Of a stretch of DNA of 58,592 bases, positions 21,173 to 36,023 are shown in pieces. Made by a program: the position numbers and the translations under genes. The DNA comes from Nitrospirota bacterium. Lineage in GTDB: Bacteria > Nitrospirota > Thermodesulfovibrionia > Thermodesulfovibrionales > JdFR-85. How positions within the stretch are numbered: position 1 is the first letter of the stretch; every line of letters begins with the position of its first letter. The stretch is from NCBI GenBank assembly GCA_013152485.1, contig JAADGG010000081.1, positions 20,621 to 79,212 of the forward strand, read 5' to 3'. The notes under the pieces were generated by a model that ran no database searches, was not told the DNA's origin, and saw nothing but the letters and a program-made list of their open reading frames with translations.

Positions 21173-21202
21173 TTGACAGTACGGATTTTTTCTTGATATA
21201 CT
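21173..21202 (+). promoter_or_regulatory. Putative promoter of the chemosensory operon
   Basis: TTGACA (21173-21178), 18-bp spacer and TATACT (21197-21202) point at the cheY-cheA operon, which starts about 400 nt downstream. It is the best candidate in the spacer. A second TTGACA near 21390 lacks a convincing -10 element. Confidence 0.6.
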
Positions 21203-21605: not shown

Positions 21606-21977
21606 GTGAAGAACATACTCGTGGTAGAGGACTCCGAGTCTACACGTTCCATGATGAAGACCATTATAGAGGACCTTGGCGAGGATTACCATGTCTTTGA
21701 GGCCGGCACCGGTTTTGAAGCACTGAAGCTCCTTCCCGCAGAAGGGTTCAGCCTGATAATAACCGATATAAACATGCCCGACATAAACGGGATAGAGCTT
21801 ATCAACTTCGTAAAAAGTACGCCCCAGTATAAAGACATTCCCGTCATCATCGTCAGCACCGAAGGCTCGGAGGAAGACAAGGACAGGGGGCTGGCTCTCG
21901 GTGCGGAGGCCTACATCACGAAGCCTTTCAAGCCTGAAGAATTTCAGGAGAAGATCAGGGTGGTCTTGAATCCATGA
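21606..21977 (+). CDS. CheY-like single-domain response regulator
   Basis: A 123-residue receiver domain without an output domain. Visible motifs are the acidic pocket VVEDSEST, the phospho-acceptor Asp in LIITDINMPDINGIEL, the Ser/Thr in VIIVSTEGSEE and Lys in AYITKPFKPEEF. It probably accepts phosphate from CheA. The start is GTG, preceded by GGAGGTGATCA at good spacing. Its stop overlaps the cheA start by 4 bp. It is the first gene of the operon. Confidence 0.92.
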   Translation: MKNILVVEDSESTRSMMKTIIEDLGEDYHVFEAGTGFEALKLLPAEGFSLIITDINMPDINGIELINFVKSTPQYKDIPVIIVSTEGSEEDKDRGLALGAEAYITKPFKPEEFQEKIRVVLNP

Positions 21978-23938
21978 GTTCATCCAAAAAGGAGTTTGTC
22001 TCCGAGGCTGAAGAACTGCTCGAAGAGGCAGAGGAACACCTGATAGAGCTCCAGGAGTCTTCCGAGACAGGTGTTGATCCTGACACCGTCAACGCACTCT
22101 TCCGCTCCATCCACACACTCAAGGGGATCTCCGGACTCTTCGGGCAGGAAGGGCTCAAAGACCTAAGCCACGCCCTCGAGGAGATACTCGACGGTCTCAG
22201 ACGCGGCGATATAGAGCTCACCGACGAGATTATCGCGTTCCTGTTCAAAAACATCGATATCCTGAAGGGTCTGCTCAAAGACGCCGATGAGGGAAGACCT
22301 TCCGACACGGTCCGGTATCTTGAAGACATAAAAGAGTTCCGCAAGGGCATCACGAACCGCGCAGGAAAGGAGCCTCTCAGGGGTGTCATCGACGAGGCGA
22401 TACTGAATGTACTCTCCAGCTACGAAGAGCAGCGTTTGCGGGCCTGCATAGGGCAGAACAGGGGGATATTCATCGCAAGCGTCGTCTTCTCACTTGAAGA
22501 CTTCGACAAGAGACTATCCGAGCTCACGGACAAGATCAAGAAGGAAGGTGAACTGATATCGACGCTGCCTACATCGGAAGACATACCGCAGGACTCCATA
22601 GGCTTCAAGATCCTGTTCGCCTCCGACAGAAACTCCGACTCCCTCAAAACCGCCCTCGGTGTAGAGCCCGTACGGATCGCCGGAAAAAAGACGGCGGAAG
22701 AAAAGAGAGACACGCGCGCACCAGCCCCTTCACTCAGGAGCATCTCCACCACTGTAAGGGTGGACATAGAGAAACTCGACAGGATCCTCAACACGATAGG
22801 GGAGCTGTCGCTTACCAGAGGGGCCTTAAAGAGGATAGAACAGGAGCTTGCAGAGACCTACGGTCACTCGGAACTCGTCTTCGACATTCACCGGGCGACA
22901 CAGAGCCTTGAGAGGAGGCTCCACGAATTGCAGCAGCAGGTGCTGGAGGTCCGGATGGTGCCCATAGGACAGATATTCTCCCGGCTTGCCCAGATAGTGA
23001 GACGGTATTCCAGAGAGATAGGAAAGCCGGTCGACCTCGAGGTCTTCGGCGAGGAGACGGAACTGGACAAGTTCATAGCAGAAGAGATCGTAGATCCATT
23101 GATGCATATCGTAAGAAACGCCATGGACCATGGGATAGAGGGTCCAGAGGAACGGAAGGCCAAGGGAAAACCGGAAAAGGGAACCATGATCGTCAGGGCC
23201 TTCCAACGCGGCAACAGCGTGATAGTGGAGATAGAGGACGACGGCAGGGGGATAGACACGAAAGAGATACGGAGGAAGGCACTGGAGAAAGGAATCATCA
23301 CGGAGGAAACGGACTTGGACGACACGGAGCTGATAGGCTTCATATTCAGGGCCGGGTTCAGTACAAAAGAGACGGTGACGGAGGTATCGGGAAGGGGGGT
23401 CGGAATGGATGTGGTTAAGGAGAGGATTTCCTCCATCGGGGGTTTCGTGGACGTGAAGACCGAGAAAGACACATACACGCGGTTCTCTCTCACGATCCCC
23501 ATCACCCTCGCAATCATAAAGTCGCTCATGGTGAAGGTGGGTACCTACACGTTCGCCCTGCCCTTGTCTTCGATCGTGGAGACACTGACGGTCAACGGCG
23601 ATGCCCTGCAGATGATCGAGGGCAAGATGGTATACAACCTCAGGGGAGAGCTGTTGCCGGTCATGCCGGTGGCGGACCTCTTCGGCACGGGTCCGTACCG
23701 GGTGGAAGACGGATACATAGTGGTTTCCGGATACGGGGAACGGAGGGTCGGTCTCCTCGTGGACGAACTCATAGGCGGACAGGAAATAGTCATAAAGTCC
23801 CTCGGCGCATATTTCGAAGGACTGAAGGGCTTTGCAGGGGTCACAGAGGTCGGCAGGCACAACGCAATACTGGTATTGGACGTCGAGACACTGACAGAGG
23901 AGATCCTGCTGAGGCACAAGGGGTTGATCCATGTATAG
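21974..23938 (+). CDS. cheA: CheA chemosensory histidine kinase
   Basis: The 654-residue kinase begins with an HPt domain whose phosphorylated His is His47 (RSIHTLKGISGLFG). A divergent P2-like segment follows (about residues 130-240), then the dimerisation helices (VDIEKLDRILNTIGELSLTR), the HATPase domain with N box HIVRNAMDHGIE, G1 DDGRGID and G2 GRGVGMDVV, and a C-terminal CheW-like domain. There is no fused receiver. The middle segment (IASVVFSLEDFDKRLSELTD) resembles CheA proteins of pathways controlling other cellular functions rather than the E. coli flagellar CheA; this is inference. Confidence 0.95.
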   Translation: MSSSKKEFVSEAEELLEEAEEHLIELQESSETGVDPDTVNALFRSIHTLKGISGLFGQEGLKDLSHALEEILDGLRRGDIELTDEIIAFLFKNIDILKGLLKDADEGRPSDTVRYLEDIKEFRKGITNRAGKEPLRGVIDEAILNVLSSYEEQRLRACIGQNRGIFIASVVFSLEDFDKRLSELTDKIKKEGELISTLPTSEDIPQDSIGFKILFASDRNSDSLKTALGVEPVRIAGKKTAEEKRDTRAPAPSLRSISTTVRVDIEKLDRILNTIGELSLTRGALKRIEQELAETYGHSELVFDIHRATQSLERRLHELQQQVLEVRMVPIGQIFSRLAQIVRRYSREIGKPVDLEVFGEETELDKFIAEEIVDPLMHIVRNAMDHGIEGPEERKAKGKPEKGTMIVRAFQRGNSVIVEIEDDGRGIDTKEIRRKALEKGIITEETDLDDTELIGFIFRAGFSTKETVTEVSGRGVGMDVVKERISSIGGFVDVKTEKDTYTRFSLTIPITLAIIKSLMVKVGTYTFALPLSSIVETLTVNGDALQMIEGKMVYNLRGELLPVMPVADLFGTGPYRVEDGYIVVSGYGERRVGLLVDELIGGQEIVIKSLGAYFEGLKGFAGVTEVGRHNAILVLDVETLTEEILLRHKGLIHV

Positions 23939-24731
23939 GGAGTTCTACGGCCTGCGGGAGCACCCTTTCAGCAAGACTCCGGACCCTCGCTTTCTCTATC
24001 CGAGCAGGGCACACGAGGAAGCACTCGCAAGACTTCAGCACGTTGCGGAAGAAAGGGAGATAATGATGTTCACAGGCGACATAGGGTGCGGAAAGACCAT
24101 GCTCACAAGGGCGTTGATGGACTCTCTCGACGACAGCTATCGGATAGTCCTCATTCTCAACCCAAGACTGACGGCGAACCAGTTCTTGAGAACGGTTGCC
24201 CGCCGCATGGATGCAGCCCCTGCTTCAAACCACAAGGACGAACTCCTCGAGGCCGTTCACAGAAGGGTCTACGAGTATCACGAAAGCGGCATCACCCCGG
24301 TGATAATCATCGATGAGGCCCAGCTCATACCGAGAAGGGATACGTTTGAGGAAATCAGGCTCCTTACCAATTTCCAGCTCGACGAAACCAACCTCGTAAG
24401 CCTGATCTTCGTGGCACAACCGGACATTCTCAGGAGGATGCGACACAGGGCATATGCGCCTCTCAGACAGAGGATCGGGTTCTTTTATCATCTGCAGCCG
24501 CTGTCCGAGGGCGAAGTCTCTGAATACATCGATCACAGACTGCGTGTGTCTGGCAGGAAGACGAGGCTGTTTACCGATGAAGCGGTCAGCCTCATTCACA
24601 GGTACTCCGGCGGGATACCCAGGCTCATAAACAGCATTGCGGCCTCGGCACTGCTCGATGCATTCGCCGGGGAATCCCGACTGGTCGACAAAGACAACGT
24701 GATGGACGCAGTGGAGGAGCTCGGACTCTGA
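23931..24731 (+). CDS. ExeA/GspA-like AAA+ ATPase
   Basis: A 266-residue ATPase beginning MYREFYGLREHPFSKTPDP, the standard N-terminus of the ExeA/GspA family. Walker A is GDIGCGKT, Walker B is VIIIDEAQL, and YSGGIPRLINSIA is the sensor-2-like region. Relatives assist assembly of type II secretion secretins or act in DNA transposition regulation (TniB-like). It overlaps cheA by 8 bp and the next cheW by 1 bp, so it belongs to the chemosensory operon. Its role there is unknown; it lacks the C-terminal peptidoglycan-binding domain of full ExeA. Confidence 0.85.
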   Translation: MYREFYGLREHPFSKTPDPRFLYPSRAHEEALARLQHVAEEREIMMFTGDIGCGKTMLTRALMDSLDDSYRIVLILNPRLTANQFLRTVARRMDAAPASNHKDELLEAVHRRVYEYHESGITPVIIIDEAQLIPRRDTFEEIRLLTNFQLDETNLVSLIFVAQPDILRRMRHRAYAPLRQRIGFFYHLQPLSEGEVSEYIDHRLRVSGRKTRLFTDEAVSLIHRYSGGIPRLINSIAASALLDAFAGESRLVDKDNVMDAVEELGL

Positions 24732-25423
24732 TGGACATGGCGAAGATCAGGAAGAAGGCCGCACAGGCCGGATCCGGCGCTGAACCGCGGATCAAAGCGG
24801 AACCGAAGAAACCTCCGGCCGACGATGCTGCAGAGACCGGAGCCGCTGTCGGGGAAGACCCCGCGGCAGGACAAGGCAGCGCCGTCGGGCGCGGCGAGAC
24901 AGACAGCCAGGCTACACCGGAGGACTCCCCGGCCGAAGTCCGCGAACCCGAGATCGTACTGCTGTGTTTCAGGCTCGGCTCCGAGACACACGCCTTCCGT
25001 TTGCGGGACGTACAGGAGATCGCCCATCCGCCTGCGGTAACGCCGGTGCCGGGGACTCCGCCCTATGTAAGGGGGCTGAGCTCCCTACGCGGCAAGATGC
25101 TTCCGATCATCGATCTCAAGGCGCGTCTCAACATCACACCTGACGATGAGAGGCCCCCCGCAGCGGAGAGGGCCGCCCAACGGGCAAAGGTGATCATAGT
25201 CAGGGGACCAAAAGGGCCGATCGGTGTCCATGCAGACGGAATCATAGGGGTCAGACGGATGCCCGAAGCCGACCTCTCCCCTGCCCCCGCACACATCGAT
25301 GAAGAGGAGGCGAGGTTCATTGAGGGAGTCGTCATCTCCGAGGGAACGTTCGTGACCGTTCTTAGGGCTGAAGAAGCGCTCACGTTCAAGATAACCGGAA
25401 GGGTGCTTCCAGAAGTCCGCTGA
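24731..25423 (+). CDS. cheW: CheW-like adaptor with long charged N-terminal extension
   Basis: A 230-residue protein. Residues 1 to about 72 are low complexity, rich in Ala, Pro, Glu and Lys, and probably disordered. The CheW domain follows, with LLCFRLGSETHAFRLRDVQEI, PPYVRGLSSLRGKMLPIIDL and IGVHADGIIGVRRM. CheW domains bridge MCPs and CheA. The ATG overlaps the stop of the ExeA-like gene. The extension may hold another partner; that is inference. Confidence 0.9.
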   Translation: MDMAKIRKKAAQAGSGAEPRIKAEPKKPPADDAAETGAAVGEDPAAGQGSAVGRGETDSQATPEDSPAEVREPEIVLLCFRLGSETHAFRLRDVQEIAHPPAVTPVPGTPPYVRGLSSLRGKMLPIIDLKARLNITPDDERPPAAERAAQRAKVIIVRGPKGPIGVHADGIIGVRRMPEADLSPAPAHIDEEEARFIEGVVISEGTFVTVLRAEEALTFKITGRVLPEVR

Positions 25424-25481: not shown

Positions 25482-28334
25482 ATGGGAAAGCTTGAAAAGA
25501 AGGTCCTTGGAGTCGTCATGTCGGTCATTATCCTGGGCACCATATTCGCCGTGACCATCGTAATCTATCTTCAACGTAAAAACATCTACGAGACAGCCCA
25601 GGAGAAGATGTTCGAGACCGCGACCGTAATCAGCACGAGCATCGAAAGGACCATGCTGGAGGGGCGTTCCGAGATCACCAAGGCCATGGCCGGAGACCTC
25701 AAGGCTTTAGAAGGGGTTGAAACCATCACCATCCTGAACCACGAAGGCCGCGTGGCCTTCGACAGGAAGGCCCCTGCAACGGAGAAGGACTATGTCGAAA
25801 GATTCAGGACGAACCTCTCCCCCTACTCCCTGATCGAGAACGGAAGGATGATCATATACAAGCCACTGGTAAAGAGGTCGGCCTGCCAGAAGTGCCACAA
25901 GCTCGACAGCCCCTTCATAGGCGTAGTCAAGGTCTCGATGTCTCTCGACAGCGAGAAGCGGAAGATATCACAGATGGCTACGATCAACATCACCGCATCC
26001 CTGTTCGCCATCAGCATCCTCTCCTTCATAATGTGGCTGCTCCTCAGAAAGATAGTGATCAACCCTATAAAGAAGATCGAACTGGCCGCAAGGCACCTGT
26101 CGGACGGGGACCTGACTTTCAACGTCGACATAGACACTTCCGACGAGATCGGACAGGCGAGCGTTGCGCTTCAGGATGCCCTCCAATCGATATCATCGAT
26201 CCTCCAGAGGGTAAAGGACGTCACGAAAAGGATATCGAAGATCTCTTCGGAGGTAGAAGCCGACTCCAGGGACATCCTCGAGGGCACACAGCTTGAGGCC
26301 GAGGCGATCGAGAACATATCCGCCTCGATAGAGGAGCTGAACGCCGCAATCACCGAGATAGCCGCAAACACCGAAGACCTTGCAGCGTCTTCCGAGCAGA
26401 CGAGGTCAGCGGTCGAAGAGATGGCCGCCAGCACCTCTCAGATCGCAAACAACAGCAACGAGCTCTTCGAGTCTACAGAATCCACCTCGGCATCCATCGA
26501 GGAGCTCTCCTCTTCCATAAAAGAGGTTGCACAGAACGCCGACGAACTCTTCAGGTCGGCCGAGGACACCCTCTCTGCAATCGAAGAGATTACCGCCTCG
26601 ATCAGGGAAGTCGAGGGCAACACCAAGGAGTCGGCCAGGCTGAGCGAGCGGGTCATGAACGAGGCATCCACCTATGGCATGACATCCATCGAGAAGACCA
26701 TCAAGGGGATGGAGCGGATAAAGACATCCGTCGAGAAGACTGCGGAATACATAAAGAAGCTGGGCGGGCGGTCTGAAGAGATAGGCAAGATACTCACCGT
26801 GATCGACGACGTAACGGACCAGACCACCCTTCTTGCGCTCAATGCCGCCATACTGGCGGCACAGGCCGGTGAACACGGGAAAGGATTCTCCGTGGTCGCC
26901 GACGAGATAAAAGACCTTGCAGAGAGGACCTCTTTCTCGACACAGGAGATATCGTCCCTCATACAGACGGTGCAGCAGGAGGTCATGGATGCAGTGGATG
27001 CAATGAAACACGGCCTCGAGGCCGTCAACGAAGGTCTCGGTCTCTCAAAGGAGGCCTCAGAGGCTCTCAGAAAGATCGTCGAGAGCGCACAGCTGTCTTC
27101 AGAGATGTCGACGGCAATAGAACACTCGACCTCCGAGCAGGCAGAGGCCGCAAGGTTCGTCTCGAGATCCATGGAGAACGTGCGCAACATGGCCAGTCAG
27201 ATAGCAAAGGCGACCTCGGAGCAATCAAGGGGTATGAACCTGATAACAAATGCAGCCGAAAAGGTCAAGGATATAGCCATACAGGTGAAGACCGCCACCG
27301 AGGAGCAGTCGACGCAGAGCAGGCAGATAAGGAAGAGCACCGACGTGGTCTCTGAAAAGAGCCAGCAGATAGCCAACGCCATCAATGAGCAGAAGACCGA
27401 GTCCGAACAGATAAAGAGGTCGGCAGAAAACATCTCAGACCTGCCCATGAAGAACAGAAACCTCTCGTTCAAGGTCAACAACTCCCTGAGGTCACTCGTA
27501 AAGGACTCCGAGCTGATCGTTACGGAGATGGAAAGGTTCCGCTTCTCCATATCCGCACGGACCGAAAAGACCATCAGGTTCGGGGTCATCCCCCTCGAGT
27601 CTCCCGCGGACATGCACAGAAAGTTCACGCCTCTTGCAGAGTACCTGAGCAGAAGGCTGGGCAAGAGGGTTGAACTAAAGGTCGGCGTCGATTTCGACAG
27701 CGCCATAAAGGAGATAGGCAGCGGAACCACACAGTTGTGTTACATGACCCCATCCACATACATAAAGGCCAACCGCGACTACGACGTCAGGGTTATCGCC
27801 AAGGCCCTGAGGAACGGCAAGCCCTTCCACCACTCGGTCATAATAGCCAGGAACGACAGCCCGGTATCGAGTATCGAAGACCTCAGGGGAAGGTCCTTCG
27901 CCTTCGGAGACAAGGAGTCCACGTCTTCGCACATAGTGCCGCGCTACATGCTGCTTGAAGCCGGCATAGACCTCAACGACCTGCTGTTCTATAATTATCT
28001 CGGACACCACGACGATGTTGCGAGGGCGGTGCTCTCCGGAGAGTACGACGCCGGAGGAGTCATGGAATCAACTGCAGACAAATACAAGGAGAGGGGCTTG
28101 AAATTCATAAAGTTCTCCGATGAAATCCCCGAGTTCAACATATGTATCACCAGCGAGATGCCCCAGGAGTCCGCAGAGGAGATAAAGTCGGCCATTCTCG
28201 CCCTCAAGGATACCGGAGCGGAGGGGATAGCGGTCCTGAAGTCCATCGATGAGCACTACACGGGGTTTGTAGAGGCCAGTGACGATGACTACACCTGGAT
28301 AAGGAACATCATGTCGAGACTGAAGATGATATGA
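25482..28334 (+). CDS. Methyl-accepting protein with periplasmic c-heme motif and C-terminal PhnD-like domain
   Basis: A 950-residue receptor with an unusual layout. TM1 is about residues 9-30. A periplasmic sensor follows, carrying CQKCH (residues 135-139), a CxxCH covalent heme site, as in the heme-containing PAS-like sensors of Geobacter MCPs GSU0582 and GSU0935. TM2 is about 167-188, then a HAMP domain to about 240 and the signalling coiled coil to about 690 with tip [20 protein letters not shown]. From about residue 695 a PhnD-type substrate-binding domain starts ([58 protein letters not shown]). It is predicted to be cytoplasmic. The reading frame is continuous and the ribosome binding site AAAGGAGAAGAG precedes the ATG. 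Confidence 0.9.
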
Positions 28335-28401: not shown

Positions 28402-30390
28402 ATGAATACTAAAAAGAGACTATCCACGACATTCATACGCAAGGTCCTCGTGGTACTGCTTATCGGACAGTCCTTCATCTGGTACTGGTCCTTCTCCAGA
28501 CACAATATCACCATTGACACCGATCTGGAGAAGAGGATGCAGACGGCGTCGGCCATCATCGGAAGCGTTGCAGCCGCCGTGGATACCGCACAGGGACACA
28601 GATACCTCGAACGAGTGATGGACGGGGCCCTGAGTGATGAAAACATCGTATACATAGAGGTCAGCAGGGAGAGCGACGTCGTGATCAGGAGGTCTACGTC
28701 TCAGGACGACCCGGCGCTGCGCATCGTCAAGACCCCCATAGTAAAAGGGGATTCCGAGATCGGCACTGTGCTGCTGAAATACAAATCCGGGAAGACCGAT
28801 ACGGCCTTCATACTCACAAACCTGACGCTCCAGGGCATCGTCTTCACCGTGCTGACGCTGCTGATATACCTCTTCTTCCAGGGGCACATCGGGACTCAGA
28901 TAGCGAAGTTGAGCACGAATATCGAGAAGGTCACCCTCGGTGACCTGACCCAGAAGGTCGAGATCTCCGAGGACAACGAGATAGGAGTCATCGCAAAGGG
29001 TCTCAACTTCCTGATCGAGCGGCTCCTGATCACCGTGAAGAAACTGAAAAGCGTGGCTGGAAACGTCTCTGCAGCGATAAGCCAGCTCAACCTGACTTTC
29101 AAGAACGTAATCAACGGCATAAGTCACCAGCAGCGGTCCATCGAGGAGATATCGAGGGCAGTGAAGACCGCCTCGGGCGCACAGCTCCAGACGATTACGA
29201 ATACCGAGAAGCTCCTCTCACTGTCGAACGACAATGTATCCGCCCTCCTTGAGATGAGGGCGGCCTCTGAGGAGATAGCGGCCAACATAAGCAGTCTCAA
29301 CAGGAACATCAGCGCTTCATACTCCACGCTGGCGGGCCTTACACGGTCGGCTCAGGAAGTGGCCTCCATGGCGGACAATGCCACGTCGGCGGTCCAGCAG
29401 GCCTCGACCTCCATTGAAGAGATCAACGCCTCGGTCAAGGAAGTGGAAAAGACCATAAAAGAGTCCGCGGAACTGAGCCATCAGACTACGAACATCATTG
29501 CGGAGAAAGGAATGCTCTCGGTTGTGGATGCCATCGAGGGGATGGAGAGGATCGAAGACTCCGTGAACTCTCTCTCCGAGGCGATCAAGAGACTCGGCAG
29601 GAGATCGAGGGACATAGAGAAGATCCTATCCGTCATCAAGGATGTTACGGAGCAGACGGGCATGCTCAGCCTGAACGCACAGATACTCGCTGTACAGGCG
29701 GGAGAGCACGGAAAGAGTTTCTCCGTGGTGGCGGATGAAATGCGGAGCCTGTCGGAGAAGACCGCGGTGTCCACGCACGACATCGCAATCATAGTCTCCA
29801 CCCTCCAGAAGGAGATACGAGAGGCCATGGAGAGTACGATGGAGACCGTCAGGATGGTTGAAGAGGGGAATCATATAGTCCTCAAGACCGGCGATACCCT
29901 GAGGGAGATACTGCACGCCTCCCAGAAGTCCACAAGCATGGCTGAAAGCATCGAACGGGCGGTCGTGCAGCAGGCAAAGGGCCTGGAACTCATAGTCAAC
30001 GCCATAGAGCACATAAAGGGCATGATCATCGATGTAAACAGGACGACCGAGGAACAGGAGCAGGGCACGGCGTCACTGCTTGAGAGCATAAGCTCGATCA
30101 AGGAATCCATGGAGGCCGCAAGGAACGCCACGGACGAGCAGGCGGAGAGCACGAGGTTCATTACGGATAACATCGAGCTCGCAAACGAGAAGACGGCCGA
30201 GATAGCAAGGGCCTCGGCCGAGCAGCAGGAGGTCAACAAGAGGATAATAGAGGCGATGGAAGAGGTCATGGTTATAGGGAAGGAGACGGCGAGAAACGTC
30301 AAGGAGGTCTCCCTCTTCATCTCGTCGCTGCACAACGAAGTTGAAGTATTGAGAAAGGAAGTCGAGCTCTTCAGGACGAGCACTGCATGA
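28402..30390 (+). CDS. Methyl-accepting chemotaxis protein
   Basis: A 662-residue transmembrane receptor. TM1 is about residues 14-32, a periplasmic segment of about 100 residues has no heme motif, TM2 is about 140-160, followed by HAMP and a long coiled coil to the C-terminus. The hairpin tip reads TGMLSLNAQILAVQAGEHGK, further from the consensus than the tip of the preceding MCP. There is no C-terminal pentapeptide tether. It lies 67 bp after the heme MCP and its stop overlaps the next cheW by 4 bp, so the two receptors may work in one array. Confidence 0.93.
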   Translation: MNTKKRLSTTFIRKVLVVLLIGQSFIWYWSFSRHNITIDTDLEKRMQTASAIIGSVAAAVDTAQGHRYLERVMDGALSDENIVYIEVSRESDVVIRRSTSQDDPALRIVKTPIVKGDSEIGTVLLKYKSGKTDTAFILTNLTLQGIVFTVLTLLIYLFFQGHIGTQIAKLSTNIEKVTLGDLTQKVEISEDNEIGVIAKGLNFLIERLLITVKKLKSVAGNVSAAISQLNLTFKNVINGISHQQRSIEEISRAVKTASGAQLQTITNTEKLLSLSNDNVSALLEMRAASEEIAANISSLNRNISASYSTLAGLTRSAQEVASMADNATSAVQQASTSIEEINASVKEVEKTIKESAELSHQTTNIIAEKGMLSVVDAIEGMERIEDSVNSLSEAIKRLGRRSRDIEKILSVIKDVTEQTGMLSLNAQILAVQAGEHGKSFSVVADEMRSLSEKTAVSTHDIAIIVSTLQKEIREAMESTMETVRMVEEGNHIVLKTGDTLREILHASQKSTSMAESIERAVVQQAKGLELIVNAIEHIKGMIIDVNRTTEEQEQGTASLLESISSIKESMEAARNATDEQAESTRFITDNIELANEKTAEIARASAEQQEVNKRIIEAMEEVMVIGKETARNVKEVSLFISSLHNEVEVLRKEVELFRTSTA

Positions 30391-30914
30391 AATACGCCAT
30401 CTTCGAGATCGCCGGCGAGAGTTTCGGCATAGGAATCGACCGGGTCGTCGAAATACTGAAGTATCAGGACCTTCACAGGATTCCGGAACTCCCGGATTTC
30501 GTCTCCGGCGTGATAAACGTAAGGGGGGAAGTCGTTCCCGTCATAGACATGAGGTTGAGGTTCGGAATAGCCGAAGAAGCCCGGCGGCACAGGATCATTC
30601 TCGTCAGGATGGAAGGCGACAAGGTCGGTCTGGTTGTGGATGACGTGACGGACATAGTGGAGATACCGGAGGACGGCATATCGAGTCCCCCGAAGCTGTT
30701 CAAAGGATTCAGGGCGGAGTTCATGAAAGGACTGTGTCAAGGGCGCTCCGACAGCGGTACAGGGCCTGCCGGCAACGGCAAGGTGATAATAATACTGGAT
30801 ATGGAACGGATCCTGACAAGCAGCGAAAAGATCATGTTGAGCACTTCGAGGAAGAAACTGATTACTCACGGGAGGAGACGTGTCAGCAGAAGAGTCCAGG
30901 AAGGCCAGGAATAA
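30387..30914 (+). CDS. cheW: CheW-like adaptor protein
   Basis: A compact 175-residue CheW: MKYAIFEIAGESFGIGIDRV, IPELPDFVSGVINVRGEVVP and VIDMRLRFGI are the standard strands, and VGLVVDDVTDIVEI is the second half. It is the second CheW in the operon and lacks the N-terminal extension of the first. The start overlaps the MCP stop as ATGA. Its last 35 bp overlap the HEAT-repeat gene in another frame. The tail beyond residue 145 is Lys/Arg/Ser rich. Confidence 0.93.
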   Translation: MKYAIFEIAGESFGIGIDRVVEILKYQDLHRIPELPDFVSGVINVRGEVVPVIDMRLRFGIAEEARRHRIILVRMEGDKVGLVVDDVTDIVEIPEDGISSPPKLFKGFRAEFMKGLCQGRSDSGTGPAGNGKVIIILDMERILTSSEKIMLSTSRKKLITHGRRRVSRRVQEGQE

Positions 30915-32856
30915 AGACATCGAGCTGAAGCGGCGGAAGATACTCGCTTCAAAGGGCGTACCCGAAGCCCTGGGCTACGTCATGGATTCCTTCAAAGACG
31001 ACAGCTGGCGTGTGAGAAAGACCGCCCTCGATGTCCTGATCGAGGGGTTCAGTCCGGACGCCTACGTCAAAGACCTGATCGGACTGCTCCATGTCGAGGA
31101 CAATGCGGGTGCACGCAATACCGCCATAGAGGCCCTCGTCAGACTCGGGAAAAAAGCGGTTCCCGATCTCACCGCCGCCTTTGAGACCGACAATCCAGGC
31201 GTGAGAAAATTCATAATCGATGTCCTGGGTGTCATAGGCGGGAAAGAGGTCGTCCCATTGTTCCTGAAGGCCATAAGGGATGAGGACGACAACGTCAGGG
31301 CCTCGGCCGTAGAGTATCTCGGAAGGCTCAAGGAGCCGTCAGTGATAGACTCTCTGGTGGAGATCATCGAGACCGGAAAGCTCTGGACGGCCTATCCCGC
31401 GGTGAACGCCCTGGGAAAGATCGGCGACACAAGGGCCTTGCCCCACCTGTTGAAGGCACTCCGGAACAGTCTTCTTACAGAGCCGGCCCTCAAGGCACTG
31501 TCAGAGTTTTCAGTCCCGGAGACGCTGAAGGAGATAATACCCCTGCTCCGAAGCCGGAGACGATCCACCGTAGAGGAGACGATCAAGACCATCGAGAGGT
31601 TCTATCAGGCCGGTGTGCCCGAGGAATTCATATCCAAACAACTGCACGAGATACTCGGAGACGATGCCTGTGAAATATTCGAGAGGCACATAAGCCACAA
31701 AAACAAGGAAGTGAAGGGCTCTGCAATCCTCCTTCTCGGTCTCCTGTGCGATCACCGGGCATTGGGACCGCTTCTCGAGCTCTCCGAAGACGAATCCTCC
31801 ATGGATGCGGTCAAGCGTTCGATGGTCTTCATAGGCCGGCGGAACCCCCACTACCTCATTCCGCTGACAAGGACGGGGGCCCCCGAAAGGCGGAGGCTGA
31901 TAGTCGAGGTCATGTCCGAGCTCGAAGACCCTCTCTTCCGTGACACACTCATGGTCTTGCTCAAGGACGACGACGGGCATGTGAAAGCGCATGCTGCAAG
32001 GGGACTGGGCAGGATAGGGGACAGGAGGGCCGCAGAAGAGATATTTCATCTCCTTTCACATCCATATCCCGACGTACAGGACGCTGCCGTAGCGGCACTG
32101 ACCGAGTTGAGCGCATTCCTCGACGTCTCCGAACTGATCGACAAGCTCAAGTCTCCCGATGTGCTCTTGAGGAAAAACACAGCCCTGATTCTGGGTAATA
32201 TCAGGGCCGTCGAGTCTCTCGAAAAACTCGGTTTTGCACTCAAGGATGAAGCAGAAGAGGTACGGAAGGCCGCGGTTGTCTCGATATCCATGATCGGAAC
32301 CGAAAATGCCGCCAGGTACCTCCATACGGCTCTCACTGATGAATCCGCCGAGATACGTGCCATAGCCACGGAAAGCCTCTCGCTCTGTGACGACGGTCCC
32401 GAGGTCCTGAGCTCCGTCATAATAATGACGAGAGATCCCGACGAGGGGGTCAGGGCATCGGCAGCCAAGGCACTTTCCAGATACCATAACGAGTCGTCTC
32501 TCAGAACACTGCTGGGATTGTTGAGAGACGGCAACGGCTTTGTCGTGACTCAGGCCATGGAGTCGCTGAGCCTCTTCAGCCACAGCACGGAGGCCCGGGA
32601 GGCACTGGTCAGGTTGAGCCTTTCGGATGACAGCGAGATCCGCAGGACGGCAATCCTGTCACTGTCATCGTTTCATGACGTGGAAGACCTGCTGGAAACC
32701 CATCTCTCCAGCAGCGACTGGGCAACGAGGCTTGCCGCCGTGCAGGCACTGTCACGGATAGGTTCCCGAAAATCGCGGGCAGGGCTGGAGGGGATCTACG
32801 ACGTCGAGACCGACCCTACTGTCAGGAGGGCCATCGAGGTGGCTTTAGGTGTTTGA
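30880..32856 (+). CDS. HEAT-repeat protein of the chemosensory operon
   Basis: A 658-residue, all-helical repeat protein. From about residue 20 to the end it consists of HEAT/PBS-lyase-like repeats of about 31 residues, for example VRASAVEYLGRLKEPSVID and VKAHAARGLGRIGDRRAAEE. There is no signal peptide or membrane segment and no catalytic motif, so it is a cytoplasmic scaffold candidate. The start is GTG at 30880 with GGAGG just upstream, inside the end of cheW; the stop overlaps the GTG of cheR. HEAT proteins are known in some other non-flagellar chemosensory clusters. The partner is unknown. Confidence 0.85.
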   Translation: MSAEESRKARNKDIELKRRKILASKGVPEALGYVMDSFKDDSWRVRKTALDVLIEGFSPDAYVKDLIGLLHVEDNAGARNTAIEALVRLGKKAVPDLTAAFETDNPGVRKFIIDVLGVIGGKEVVPLFLKAIRDEDDNVRASAVEYLGRLKEPSVIDSLVEIIETGKLWTAYPAVNALGKIGDTRALPHLLKALRNSLLTEPALKALSEFSVPETLKEIIPLLRSRRRSTVEETIKTIERFYQAGVPEEFISKQLHEILGDDACEIFERHISHKNKEVKGSAILLLGLLCDHRALGPLLELSEDESSMDAVKRSMVFIGRRNPHYLIPLTRTGAPERRRLIVEVMSELEDPLFRDTLMVLLKDDDGHVKAHAARGLGRIGDRRAAEEIFHLLSHPYPDVQDAAVAALTELSAFLDVSELIDKLKSPDVLLRKNTALILGNIRAVESLEKLGFALKDEAEEVRKAAVVSISMIGTENAARYLHTALTDESAEIRAIATESLSLCDDGPEVLSSVIIMTRDPDEGVRASAAKALSRYHNESSLRTLLGLLRDGNGFVVTQAMESLSLFSHSTEAREALVRLSLSDDSEIRRTAILSLSSFHDVEDLLETHLSSSDWATRLAAVQALSRIGSRKSRAGLEGIYDVETDPTVRRAIEVALGV

Positions 32857-33733
32857 CAGGAGAGAGAACACCGTCCTCTCCGAGGATGTATTCAGGCTCC
32901 TCAGGGAGCTGATACGGGACTACTGCGGCATATACTTCGATGACAACTCGAGGTACCTTCTCGAAAAACGCCTGTCGGCGAGACTCAGGGCGAACAACAT
33001 AAGCAACTTCCGTGACTACTACAGGTACCTCCTCTATGACGGAAACCGCGAAAACGAACTCGCCGAGATAATGGACGTGCTCACGGTGAACGAGACCTAC
33101 TTCTTCAGGGAGAAGAACCAGCTCCTCTCTTTCAGCGAGGAGATACTTCCCGAACTGAGGAGGAAAAACAGGCATACGGGAAAGCTGAGGATATGGTCGG
33201 CAGGTTGTTCAACAGGTGAAGAGCCGTATACCATAGGCATACTGATACTCGAAAGCAACCTGTTCAACGGATGGGACGTCGAGATCATAGGAAGCGACAT
33301 CAACAGAAGGGTGCTACAGACCGCAAGAAGGGGGGTTTACAGGCAGAACTCCTTCAGGTGCATTGACAGTTACTACCTGGACAAGTACTTCGAACCCCTT
33401 GAGGACGGCTCCTTCAGAATAACGGACAAGGTGAAAAGACTCCTCAGTTTCGGATATCTCAACCTGCTCGACCCTGTAAAGATGCGTTTCATGGGAAAGA
33501 CCGACGTGGTCTTCTGCAGAAACGCACTGATATATTTCGACATGCAATCACGAAGGAAGGTGGTTGACGGTTTTTACAACGTATTGGCCGAAGGGGGATA
33601 CCTGCTCCTGGGACACGCGGAGTCGCTGATAAACATGTCGACCGCCTTTGCACTCAAGCACCTAAAGCGAGACCTCGTATACCAGAAACCCGAAACGTCG
33701 TCACAGGGGGCCGTACAATGCCGGAAAGGATAA
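32849..33733 (+). CDS. cheR: CheR chemoreceptor methyltransferase
   Basis: CheR methylates glutamates of MCPs using S-adenosylmethionine. The 294-residue protein has the N-terminal helical domain with VLTVNETYFFREKNQLLSF and the SAM domain with RIWSAGCSTGEEPYTIGIL, IIGSDINRRVLQTARRGVY and VVFCRNALIYFD. The start is GTG, overlapping the HEAT gene stop by 8 bp. It overlaps cheB by 16 bp. It has no TPR or other extension. Confidence 0.96.
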   Translation: MFDRRENTVLSEDVFRLLRELIRDYCGIYFDDNSRYLLEKRLSARLRANNISNFRDYYRYLLYDGNRENELAEIMDVLTVNETYFFREKNQLLSFSEEILPELRRKNRHTGKLRIWSAGCSTGEEPYTIGILILESNLFNGWDVEIIGSDINRRVLQTARRGVYRQNSFRCIDSYYLDKYFEPLEDGSFRITDKVKRLLSFGYLNLLDPVKMRFMGKTDVVFCRNALIYFDMQSRRKVVDGFYNVLAEGGYLLLGHAESLINMSTAFALKHLKRDLVYQKPETSSQGAVQCRKG

Positions 33734-34776
33734 AGGTCCTGGTTGTCGATGACTCCGCCTTCAGCAGGCAGACGATCAAGAACATGCTGCTGAAGGCTCC
33801 GGTGGTCGATGTGGTGGGGGTCGCCGTGGACGGGATCGACGCAATAAGAAAGACCCTCCGTTACAGGCCGGACATAATAACTCTCGACGTCGAGATGCCG
33901 AAGATGGACGGGTTCAGCTTCCTGCGGTGGCTTATGAGGGAACGTCCAACGCCCGTAATAATGGTCAGCTCACACTCGGACAGCAAGACCGTGTTCAAGG
34001 CACTGGAGCTGGGAGCCGTCGATTTCATCGCCAAGCCGACCAAACGGGCTTCCTTCGAGCTTCAGAAGATCGAGAACGACCTGCTGTCAAAGGTCCGCAA
34101 CATAGATGCCTCCTCTCTGCACAGGCTCAGCAGGAACCTCAGATCCGTATCCGCGATGAGAGAGGCGGAGAGGCTTCCGGCGCCGCCAGGAAAACATCCG
34201 GACGGGATTGTGGCCATAGGCGCCTCCACGGGCGGTCCCCAGGCGCTTCAGCTGATTCTGACGGCGATACCCGGAAACTTTCCCGTGCCGATCGTGATAA
34301 GCCAGCACATGCCGAGGGGGTTCACGGCCTCGTTCTCGGAGAGGCTTAACAGGCTTGCTGAAATACGGGTCAAGGAGGCCGAAGACGATGAGCCTATCGA
34401 GCCCGGAGAGGCGCTGATATGTCCGGGCGGTCACCATCTGCAGTTCAGAAAGAGGGGGGAGCGGGTCTTTACCAGGATCAGGGACGCAGATGAAAACGAC
34501 CGCTACGTGCCCTCTATAGACCTCATGATGGAATCCGCAGCTGAAATATTCAACGGGATGACCCTCGGCATCGTACTGACCGGAATGGGGAATGACGGGG
34601 CAAAGGGGATGCTGGAAATTTTCAGGCAAGGCGGTTATACTATTACCGAGTCTGAAGAAACGGCCGTTGTTTTCGGCATGCCCCACGAGGTCATTAAAGC
34701 AGGAGCAGCACGAAAGGTCCTGCCGCTCAAGGCGGTTCCCTCTGAACTTATACACGTAGTGATGCGGGAACAGTAG
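33718..34776 (+). CDS. cheB: CheB protein-glutamate methylesterase
   Basis: CheB removes methyl groups from MCPs and is switched on by phosphorylation from CheA. The 352-residue protein has a receiver domain (VVDDSAFSRQ, DIITLDVEMPKMDGF with the acceptor Asp, VSSHSDSKTV) and a C-terminal methylesterase domain with the catalytic Ser in VAIGASTGGPQALQ, the His in VISQHMPRGFTASF and the Asp in TGMGNDGAKGM. CheR and CheB together mean this pathway has a full adaptation system. Confidence 0.97.
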   Translation: MPERIKVLVVDDSAFSRQTIKNMLLKAPVVDVVGVAVDGIDAIRKTLRYRPDIITLDVEMPKMDGFSFLRWLMRERPTPVIMVSSHSDSKTVFKALELGAVDFIAKPTKRASFELQKIENDLLSKVRNIDASSLHRLSRNLRSVSAMREAERLPAPPGKHPDGIVAIGASTGGPQALQLILTAIPGNFPVPIVISQHMPRGFTASFSERLNRLAEIRVKEAEDDEPIEPGEALICPGGHHLQFRKRGERVFTRIRDADENDRYVPSIDLMMESAAEIFNGMTLGIVLTGMGNDGAKGMLEIFRQGGYTITESEETAVVFGMPHEVIKAGAARKVLPLKAVPSELIHVVMREQ

Positions 34777-34819: not shown

Positions 34820-35641
34820 ATGGACAAGAAACGCGGGATACTGAAAAAAGCCGATGAGTTCCTGCAGATTTTCAAGCAGGGAGAGGAGTTCACCAGGAAC
34901 CTCCTGAGCGAGAACGAACGTCTCCGGTTCCGGATCGCGGAGCTGGAGGAAGCCCGTACGCAGGACCTGAATGCGGCAAAGATACGCCATTATGAAGAAC
35001 ACATACGCATGCTGAAAGACGAGCTGGAGTCCCTGAAGGAACGATTCAAGAGGGTCGAGACCGAGAACAGGAACTTCGAGCAGAAGTACCTGCTCGTCGC
35101 CGAGGAAAACAACAACCTCGCAAACCTATATGTCGCAAGCTACCAGCTGCACTCCACACTCGATTACGAAGAGGTCATAAAGATAGTCGTGGAGATCATC
35201 ATCAACCTTATAGGGGCGGAAAGGTTCGCCGTCATGCTGATGGATGAAAGGCTCGAAAAGCTGGTACCGATAGCCTCAGAGGGCATAAGCACAGCCGCGA
35301 TAGCAGGGGTGTTCCCTGAAGACGGTATCATAGGGACGGTACTGAAGGAGGGTGAGAGTTATTTTTCGGAAGAACCTCTACAGGAAGGCTCGGATGATCC
35401 CGCAAGTCCTTCGGTATGCATACCCCTGAAGATCAAGGAGCATGTGATCGGTGTGATTGCAATCTACTCGTTTCTCGTCCAGAAGAGGAGCTTTTCCAAT
35501 GTCGATTACGAGCTCTTCAATCTCCTGGCAGGCCATGCAGCCACCGCCATATTTTCATCAAGGCTCTACACACGCTCTGAGAGGGAGTTCAGAACCATCC
35601 AGAACTTCCTGGAACTTCTGAAGGGAAAATCCAAGCAATGA
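34820..35641 (+). CDS. Coiled-coil protein with C-terminal GAF domain
   Basis: A 273-residue soluble protein. Residues about 10-100 form a charged coiled coil (LLSENERLRFRIAELEEA, LKDELESLKERFKRVETE). A GAF domain occupies about 105-250 (LDYEEVIKIVVEIIINLIGA, ERFAVMLMDERLEKLVPIAS, IPLKIKEHVIGVIAIYSF). GAF domains bind small molecules or mediate dimers; there is no kinase or cyclase output. It lies between cheB and the last cheY with a short gap on each side, so it is probably co-transcribed. It may be an extra sensor or scaffold; the ligand is unknown. Confidence 0.8.
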   Translation: MDKKRGILKKADEFLQIFKQGEEFTRNLLSENERLRFRIAELEEARTQDLNAAKIRHYEEHIRMLKDELESLKERFKRVETENRNFEQKYLLVAEENNNLANLYVASYQLHSTLDYEEVIKIVVEIIINLIGAERFAVMLMDERLEKLVPIASEGISTAAIAGVFPEDGIIGTVLKEGESYFSEEPLQEGSDDPASPSVCIPLKIKEHVIGVIAIYSFLVQKRSFSNVDYELFNLLAGHAATAIFSSRLYTRSEREFRTIQNFLELLKGKSKQ

Positions 35642-35651
35642 AGGAGGGATC

Positions 35652-36023
35652 ATGCCAACCATCCTGGTAGTCGAGGATTCACCCACGATGAGACAGCTCA
35701 TAAGCTTCGCAATGCGCCGGATCCCTGGATCGAGGGTTATCGAGGCCACCGACGGTGTCGATGCCCTGAAGAAGCTCTCATCGGAGAAGGCTGACATCAT
35801 CCTTGCCGATATAAACATGCCCGTAATGGACGGGCTGAAGCTGGTGAGTCTGGTAAGGGGCAATTCGGCATACAAGGACATCCCCATAATCATAATCACC
35901 ACGGAAGGAGCTGAGGAAGACAGAAAAAAGGCGATGGCCATGGGAGCCGACGCCTACCTGCCGAAACCGATACAGACCCAGGAGCTCATCAGGCTCGTAA
36001 CACAGCAGCTCAGCAAGCGGTAG
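35652..36023 (+). CDS. CheY-like response regulator, last gene of the chemosensory operon
   Basis: A 123-residue receiver-only protein with VVEDSPTMRQLI, the acceptor Asp in IILADINMPVMDGLKL, IIITTEGAEEDRK and AYLPKPIQTQEL. It closely resembles the first CheY of the operon, so one may be the output and the other a phosphate sink. The ribosome binding site GAAGGAGGGATC precedes the ATG. Its 3' end overlaps the 3' end of rlmN on the other strand by 14 bp. Confidence 0.92.
   Translation: MPTILVVEDSPTMRQLISFAMRRIPGSRVIEATDGVDALKKLSSEKADIILADINMPVMDGLKLVSLVRGNSAYKDIPIIIITTEGAEEDRKKAMAMGADAYLPKPIQTQELIRLVTQQLSKR

Follow-up and report, generated by a model that had tools for sequence, protein, structure and literature searches.

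A stretch of 58,592 nucleotides from a Nitrospirota bacterium (contig JAADGG010000081.1, referred to as the window) was analysed for the role of an exeA-like ATPase gene, which lies between cheA and cheW in a chemosensory operon. The analysis favours, at roughly even odds (about 0.5), a dedicated soluble AAA+ component of an ancient chemosensory pathway, which would dock on a tail of the CheW encoded next door and act on the chemosensory array. The gene is under purifying selection, codes for an AAA+ family protein with a predicted fold and invariant residues, is inherited together with cheA and co-occurs with a short N-terminal peptide of CheW. The occurrence of this tail only where the ATPase is present suggests, at the level of sequence, that the two proteins work together.

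Inheritance of the ATPase gene with cheA

The open reading frame of the ATPase was confirmed at 23931-24731 (+), with an ATG start and 266 amino acids (aa). cheA ends at 23938 and the ATG of cheW is at 24731; these coordinates confirm the overlaps of 8 bp with cheA and 1 bp with cheW reported by the first-pass annotation of the window.

21606..21977, + strand: cheY1, single-domain response regulator directly 5' of cheA (Pfam Response_reg 1.2e-27)
21974..23938, + strand: cheA, histidine kinase with Hpt, dimerisation, HATPase and CheW domains (Pfam; orthologs)
23931..24731, + strand: exeA-like AAA+ ATPase, soluble, 266 aa (Pfam AAA_22 and predicted structure)

Gene order was compared in 81 genomes of the order, i.e. 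the window's own and 80 relatives. A cheA ortholog (at least 49% identity) was found in 49 of the 81 and an ATPase ortholog in 45 (52-100% identity, with paralogs separating at 186 bits or below). The ATPase gene lies directly 3' of that cheA in 45/45 cases, which are 45 of the 49 cheA genomes, with a gap of -5 to 52 bp; in five more genomes of the order a distant CheA (36-39%) occurs, with no ATPase ortholog. One ATPase ortholog was present in 125/141 genomes of the Geobacterales, and 122 of the 125 neighbour cheA, sharing its contig and strand, with 121 lying within 350 bp of it. In two of the remaining three (G148 and G177) the neighbour is a fragment of cheA where the contig ends; the third (G170) has its cheA match on another contig. 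CheW was found downstream of the ATPase in all 20 loci of a Geobacterales sample. Of 395 genomes sampled from the phylum, 93 contained the ATPase (62 from the same order, 11 from the rest of the class and 20 from other classes); 20 of the 31 outside the order were inspected and the ATPase follows cheA in each. The gene is conserved from the Geobacterales to the window's phylum, that is in two phyla, and because it lies beside cheA in 45/49 and 122/125 genomes of the two orders, it is no chance insertion. The adjoining of the same cheA by these orthologs upholds the earlier description of the gene as an integral operon member, and the order cheA-exeA-cheW is also found in the Geobacterales.

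Absence from the same operon in close relatives had been named beforehand as the sign of a chance insertion. Four genomes of the order have this cheA without the ATPase, namely G002 (same genus), G010 (same family), G021 and G062, and thus the absence does occur in close relatives. In G002 (L084:3381-3500), however, the start codons of exeA run on in frame into the cheW linker, a scar indicating that a single deletion took out exeA and the CheW peptide together. A recent insertion in the window was rejected on this ground, as the scar marks secondary loss of an old gene. Among the Geobacterales, cheA without the ATPase was seen in G102, G204 and G205 (CheA 53-60%) and in G085-G087 (CheA 44-45%); G194 was also scored as lacking the gene, which is present there and cut by the contig end. 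The scattered losses together with the G002 scar therefore show that the ATPase gene is old, mostly retained and occasionally lost.

The four natural losses in the order, after which the visible neighbouring operon genes are retained in G002, G010 and G021, would also suit a passenger gene, retained by operon structure with no role in the pathway. This explanation was rejected and is given hardly any credence. The ratio of nonsynonymous to synonymous substitution (dN/dS) was 0.083-0.161 in 10 within-genus pairs, indicating purifying selection, and the gene is conserved across two phyla. It also stays with cheY and cheA in split operons (in families f4 and f8 the operon stretch consists of cheY1-cheA-ATPase only, with no adjoining CheW) and co-occurs with the CheW tail.

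The N-terminal peptide of CheW

The CheW encoded after the ATPase starts with the peptide M-[DN]-[IL]-A-x-I-R-K-K (consensus MDIAKIRKKA), after which the sequences diverge. The model of the window's CheW1 showed a short helix at residues 3-14 (predicted local distance difference test, pLDDT, of about 65), disorder at residues 16-60 and a well-formed CheW domain. In the window the peptide has a net charge of +3 over residues 1-12 and the tether about 60 residues; the length of the tether is very variable among loci.

24731..25423, + strand: cheW1, adaptor of N-terminal peptide, tether and CheW domain (Pfam CheW 4e-31, residues 77-217)
24731..24760, + strand: N-terminal peptide MDMAKIRKKA of cheW1, proposed ATPase docking tail (conservation; predicted helix 3-14)
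24761..24946, + strand: tether of cheW1, variable and predicted disordered (pLDDT <50 at residues 16-60; not conserved)

The peptide was present in 86/86 assessable ATPase loci (84 by script and 2 by eye), counting as assessable every distinct ATPase locus that has a CheW no more than 1.2 kb away; ten others were set aside, seven having no CheW in that range and three lying at contig ends. None of the 10 ATPase-less loci carried it within 1 kb after cheA. G062 (L083) has lost the ATPase and has no CheW beside cheA, and hence gives no test of the peptide. The background rate of the pattern was 10 in 20,000 random windows of 305 bp. Searched for at start codons over 2.6 Mb, the strict peptide turned up in 79 distinct proteins, all 79 of them CheWs, and out of 51 CheWs not beside the ATPase 50 lacked the peptide, the single bearer being the G031 case described below. 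The strict pattern left 21 CheW reading frames near exeA without a match, mostly second CheWs or variants (MDVAKIRKK, MDILAARKK) and a few broken or N-containing reads; a wider pattern was then applied to the first CheW after the ATPase. A long lysine-rich N-terminal stretch stands in place of the CheW tail in the ATPase-less G021 (L082).

It was predicted, before the sequence was inspected, that genomes with split operons keep a peptide-bearing CheW elsewhere. In G031, which has the trio without CheW, an MDIAKIRKK-CheW was found on contig C9 as predicted. It is the only peptide-bearing protein in the first 356 kb scanned (MDIAKIRKKLKG...) and is followed by genes for methyl-accepting chemotaxis proteins (MCPs), cheW2 and the HEAT protein, which make up the other half of the split operon.

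In known positioning systems of the ParA/MinD kind, the partner protein activates the ATPase through a short basic peptide at its N terminus; TlpT with PpfA, in a cytoplasmic chemoreceptor cluster, is a suggested case (excerpts of PMC7993993). From this precedent and the peptide on CheW, docking of the CheW tail on the AAA+ ATPase is proposed. The partner in the array would be the CheW encoded next door, whose peptide, short, positively charged, probably helical and carried on a disordered tether, probably docks physically on the ATPase, judging from the sequences. The ATPase would then assemble in an ATP-driven manner on the tethered CheW, and once assembled it would assemble, position or tune the array of CheA, CheW and receptors. 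That it acts on the array, and not as the pathway's output, is put slightly below an even chance. Control of array assembly by an ATPase, which the first-pass annotation had offered as a second option, has become the leading reading, with the odds given at the start standing for the explanation as a whole. The Geobacter transposon scores and the closeness of the fold to TnsC, MuB and ORC/Cdc6, both given below, are counted in its favour.

The likeness to PpfA/TlpT and to ParA/MinD with ParB, MinE and PomX is that the partner in a large assembly has a short basic N-terminal peptide (PMC7993993, in excerpts); the window's ATPase differs in being AAA+ by Pfam AAA_22 and by predicted structure, with the candidate partner peptide on a CheW adaptor. 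An array with its own AAA+ machine, loaded through an N-terminal hook on CheW and assembling, positioning or remodelling the array, would be the AAA+ counterpart of ParA/TlpT and ParC/ParP, present in two phyla and belonging to the pathway by which Geobacter colonises electrodes; it is put forward tentatively, as somewhat less than an even bet. To our knowledge, the known ATP-using array helpers (PpfA, ParC/ParP) are all of the ParA/MinD kind. A CheW tail paired with an ATPase was not described in the open-access literature searched, as far as the searches show; one open-access paper on CheR-TPR clusters names an AAA+ ATPase among response-regulator domains, and on GSU2221 only the Geobacter transposon article cited below was found there.

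Several points weigh against an ATPase that docks on CheW and acts on the array. Four pathways in the order do without the ATPase while keeping cheY and cheA. The ATPase-less G102 (L145) keeps a degenerate peptide, MNLAETRKKAQ, scored as lacking it, and in G023 neither a peptide-bearing CheW nor a CheW1 ortholog was found in the roughly 792 kb of 2.1 Mb scanned. The peptide pattern was derived from the same data and widened once, and since the pattern itself partly sets the residue frequencies at fixed positions, these are not independent evidence. The loci are related, so that the 86 are not independent, and the ATPase losses with a testable CheW number perhaps five. The first codons of cheW overlap the end of exeA in many loci, which may explain part of the conservation there; loci with gaps, and G031, speak against its being the whole cause. 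Lastly, the transposon effect published for GSU2221, the Geobacter gene discussed below, could be polar.

Family and fold of the ATPase

One AAA+ domain covers the chain (Pfam AAA_22, E 5.8e-24, above the cut-off), and the top NCBIfam model, TIGR03015, scored 223.1 bits, below its curated cut-off of 324.5 bits. The residues expected from AAA+ motifs, namely those of Walker A and Walker B, Q180-R181 and GxPRxIN, were all invariant in 25 diverse sequences.

24075..24098, + strand: Walker A, GDIGCGKT, residues 49-56 (G49, G52, G54, K55, T56 invariant)
24303..24323, + strand: Walker B region with D128 and E129, IIIDEAQ, residues 125-131 (D128, E129, A130, Q131 invariant)
24471..24473, + strand: R181, candidate arginine finger (Q180 and R181 invariant)
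24612..24632, + strand: sensor-2-like motif, GIPRLIN, residues 228-234 (G228, P230, R231, I233, N234 invariant)

The structure was predicted with confidence (pLDDT 93.4). The nearest folds among the matches listed are ORC/Cdc6, TnsC and MuB, with Z scores of 19.4-20.3 over 228-250 aligned residues for the best eight, at a sequence identity of 12-20%. A sequence search of PDB with the ATPase returned two ABC-transporter matches only (E about 0.009), which are uninformative. The TnsC-TnsAB hook complex is among the fold matches listed, and partners of TnsC and MuB dock by terminal peptides; the window's ATPase differs from TnsC/MuB in standing in no DNA or transposase context.

The nearness of the fold to DNA-bound TnsC, MuB and ORC agrees with a nucleoid tether, in which the array is placed either by an ATPase that binds DNA like MuB/TnsC or by a basic CheW tail that itself attaches to DNA or membrane; FrzCD binds the nucleoid through a basic N-terminal tail (PMC5716589, in part). 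This explanation is improbable. The CheW tail is a fixed sequence and not merely basic, and it occurs only with the ATPase; no DNA-binding residues were identified, and the operon's MCPs have HAMP domains (Pfam), usual in membrane receptors.

The first-pass annotation had called the protein ExeA-like and suggested that the pathway acts on a secretin machine such as a type II secretion system or type IV pilus. ExeA contains a single membrane segment and, in the periplasm, a peptidoglycan-binding domain which is required for secretin assembly, according to parts of PMC4098917. The 92 distinct che-linked ATPases are 261-320 aa long and none has a membrane-like segment, the highest 19-residue hydropathy (1.64) falling near residue 72 in the AAA core; no peptidoglycan-binding domain was found by Pfam in the 266-aa ATPase. 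Several paralogs are 387-598 aa long, with a C-terminal extension and a membrane-like segment near residue 280 (hydropathy 2.1-2.7). In a tree of 27 che-linked ATPases and 16 paralogs, a branch supported at 98/96 sets the che-linked ones apart, and their nearest group is another soluble paralog. The sister paralog in the window's genome (L156:8362-9180) is soluble, 272 aa long, and adjoins a large TPR-like protein, judged by eye.

The likeness to ExeA/GspA holds for the AAA_22-type ATPase domain only, because the membrane segment and the peptidoglycan-binding domain, both present in ExeA, are missing. TIGR03015, the model of the XrtA/PEP-CTERM ATPase, matches the protein over its full length, but the window's gene is below the cut-off and lies in a chemosensory operon. 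An ExeA-type assembly factor for a type II or pilus secretin would share the AAA+ superfamily, and an ExeA-like protein of P. aeruginosa, encoded beside pilMNOP, affects piliation. Such a factor is nonetheless very improbable here, as the che-linked proteins are short and soluble with no periplasmic domain, and a search that covered secretins, and not GspB, gave no match in the che-exeA loci inspected or in the window, where the best E was 0.32. The secretin suggestion was accordingly dropped. Co-occurrence with secretins or type IV pili was discarded as a test, since secretins and PilT are each present in 81/81 genomes of the order and are uninformative. A membrane-bound paralog (L167) lies near a secretin-like stretch.

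The operon and its pathway

CheA, CheW, MCP, CheR, CheB and CheY are encoded together in a single operon of the order cheY1 - cheA - ATPase - cheW1 - MCP (PhnD-like) - MCP - cheW2 - HEAT - cheR - cheB - GAF-like - cheY2. The last four genes were named by sequence and position, and their order is conserved.

25482..28334, + strand: MCP with C-terminal PhnD-like domain (profile matches)
28402..30390, + strand: second MCP (Pfam)
30387..30914, + strand: cheW2, without the N-terminal peptide (Pfam)
30880..32856, + strand: HEAT-repeat protein (HEAT_2 1.8e-79)
32849..33733, + strand: cheR-like methyltransferase (sequence and position; conserved order)
33718..34776, + strand: cheB-like methylesterase (sequence and position; conserved order)
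34820..35641, + strand: coiled-coil protein, GAF-like by eye (conserved order)
35652..36023, + strand: cheY2, single-domain response regulator (sequence; conserved order)

A promoter-like match of 11/12 at 21173-21202, about 400 bp 5' of cheY1, is a candidate operon promoter. The PhnD-like phosphonate-binding domain of the first MCP (residues 700-937) is C-terminal of the signalling domain and expected to be cytoplasmic; the full-length arrangement is retained in many relatives. The HEAT-repeat protein is a standing operon member in two phyla, and it was not found in the stretches inspected of the ATPase-less Geobacterales loci L143-L145 and L147-L149. A PATAN-like (DUF4388) gene lies 5' of cheY1 in L069:4234-5367 and 12 other loci, and was not found upstream of cheY1 in L065 and L066 of the window's genus.

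The pathway is not tied to flagella, because 25 of the 45 ATPase genomes gave no flagellin match while PilT and secretins occur throughout the order. A long MglA-like GTPase was found in 46/49 genomes with this cheA and in 9/32 without it; its gene adjoins exeA in convergent orientation in six genomes, and in G062 it adjoins cheA. This co-occurrence tracks family lines, and the counts ignore descent. The MglA-like GTPase in L073, L080 and L083 has a long C-terminal extension and is convergent to the cheY-cheA-(exeA) unit, with genes for a GAF-GGDEF protein and SecA seen by eye beyond it in L073 and L080.

The Geobacter beta-group or cluster 5 pathway, Esn (electrode sensing network), has the same order of CheA, ATPase and CheW in GSU2220-GSU2222, and the Geobacterales relatives also share cheY, a second CheW, HEAT, cheR and cheB with the window. 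GSU2221 is taken as the ortholog of the window's ATPase on position and on prevalence in the Geobacterales, the 141-genome set being without G. sulfurreducens (its best PpcA match, in G083, is 86%). Transposon sequencing (Tn-Seq) of G. sulfurreducens on electrodes gave -2.4 for GSU2220 (CheW), -2.1 for GSU2221 ('ATPase') and -2.8 for GSU2222 (CheA), and -2.2 to -3.3 for pilC, pilQ, pilP, pilO and pilM (PMC5585712, as are the following points, from portions of that article). Clean deletions cover the CheW, the CheA, a receptor and a diguanylate cyclase, the GSU2221 ATPase not being among them. In print, Esn comprises GSU1704, 2220, 2222 and 3376; the ATPase appears in the screen, neither deleted nor named, and its phenotype is published and unexplained. 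The CheW tail is not mentioned in these portions. The annotation given there links the Esn proteins to MCP class 40H; a 40H sensor model also matches the window's first MCP, weakly. The beta-group cluster was reported to affect extracellular matrix, as an unpublished observation (PMC2577667, in part).

These data bear on the remaining explanation, in which the ATPase is the pathway's output, switched by CheY1 or CheA and driving the type IV pilus, polarity through MglA or matrix export. The split operons, which leave cheY1-cheA-exeA as a unit, are in accordance with it, as are the MglA-like genes beside exeA or cheA, the 46/49 against 9/32 distribution of the long form, the 25 genomes without a flagellin match beside universal PilT, the resemblance of the pil scores to those of GSU2220-2222 (PMC5585712, in part) and the absence of cheY1 also from the six ATPase-less Geobacterales loci. 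The output role is nevertheless considered unlikely. G002, G010, G021 and G062 all retain cheY1 despite ATPase loss, and the trait that tracks the ATPase is the CheW tail, which points into the array. The MglA counts follow families, and for Geobacter a separate diguanylate cyclase, GSU3376, has been proposed in print as the output (PMC5585712, in the portions cited).

If an AAA+ ATPase does work through the CheW tail, chemosensory arrays would have a further ATP-driven layer of control. Pathways not tied to flagella, including the one behind electrode colonisation by Geobacter, would then gain a missing component.

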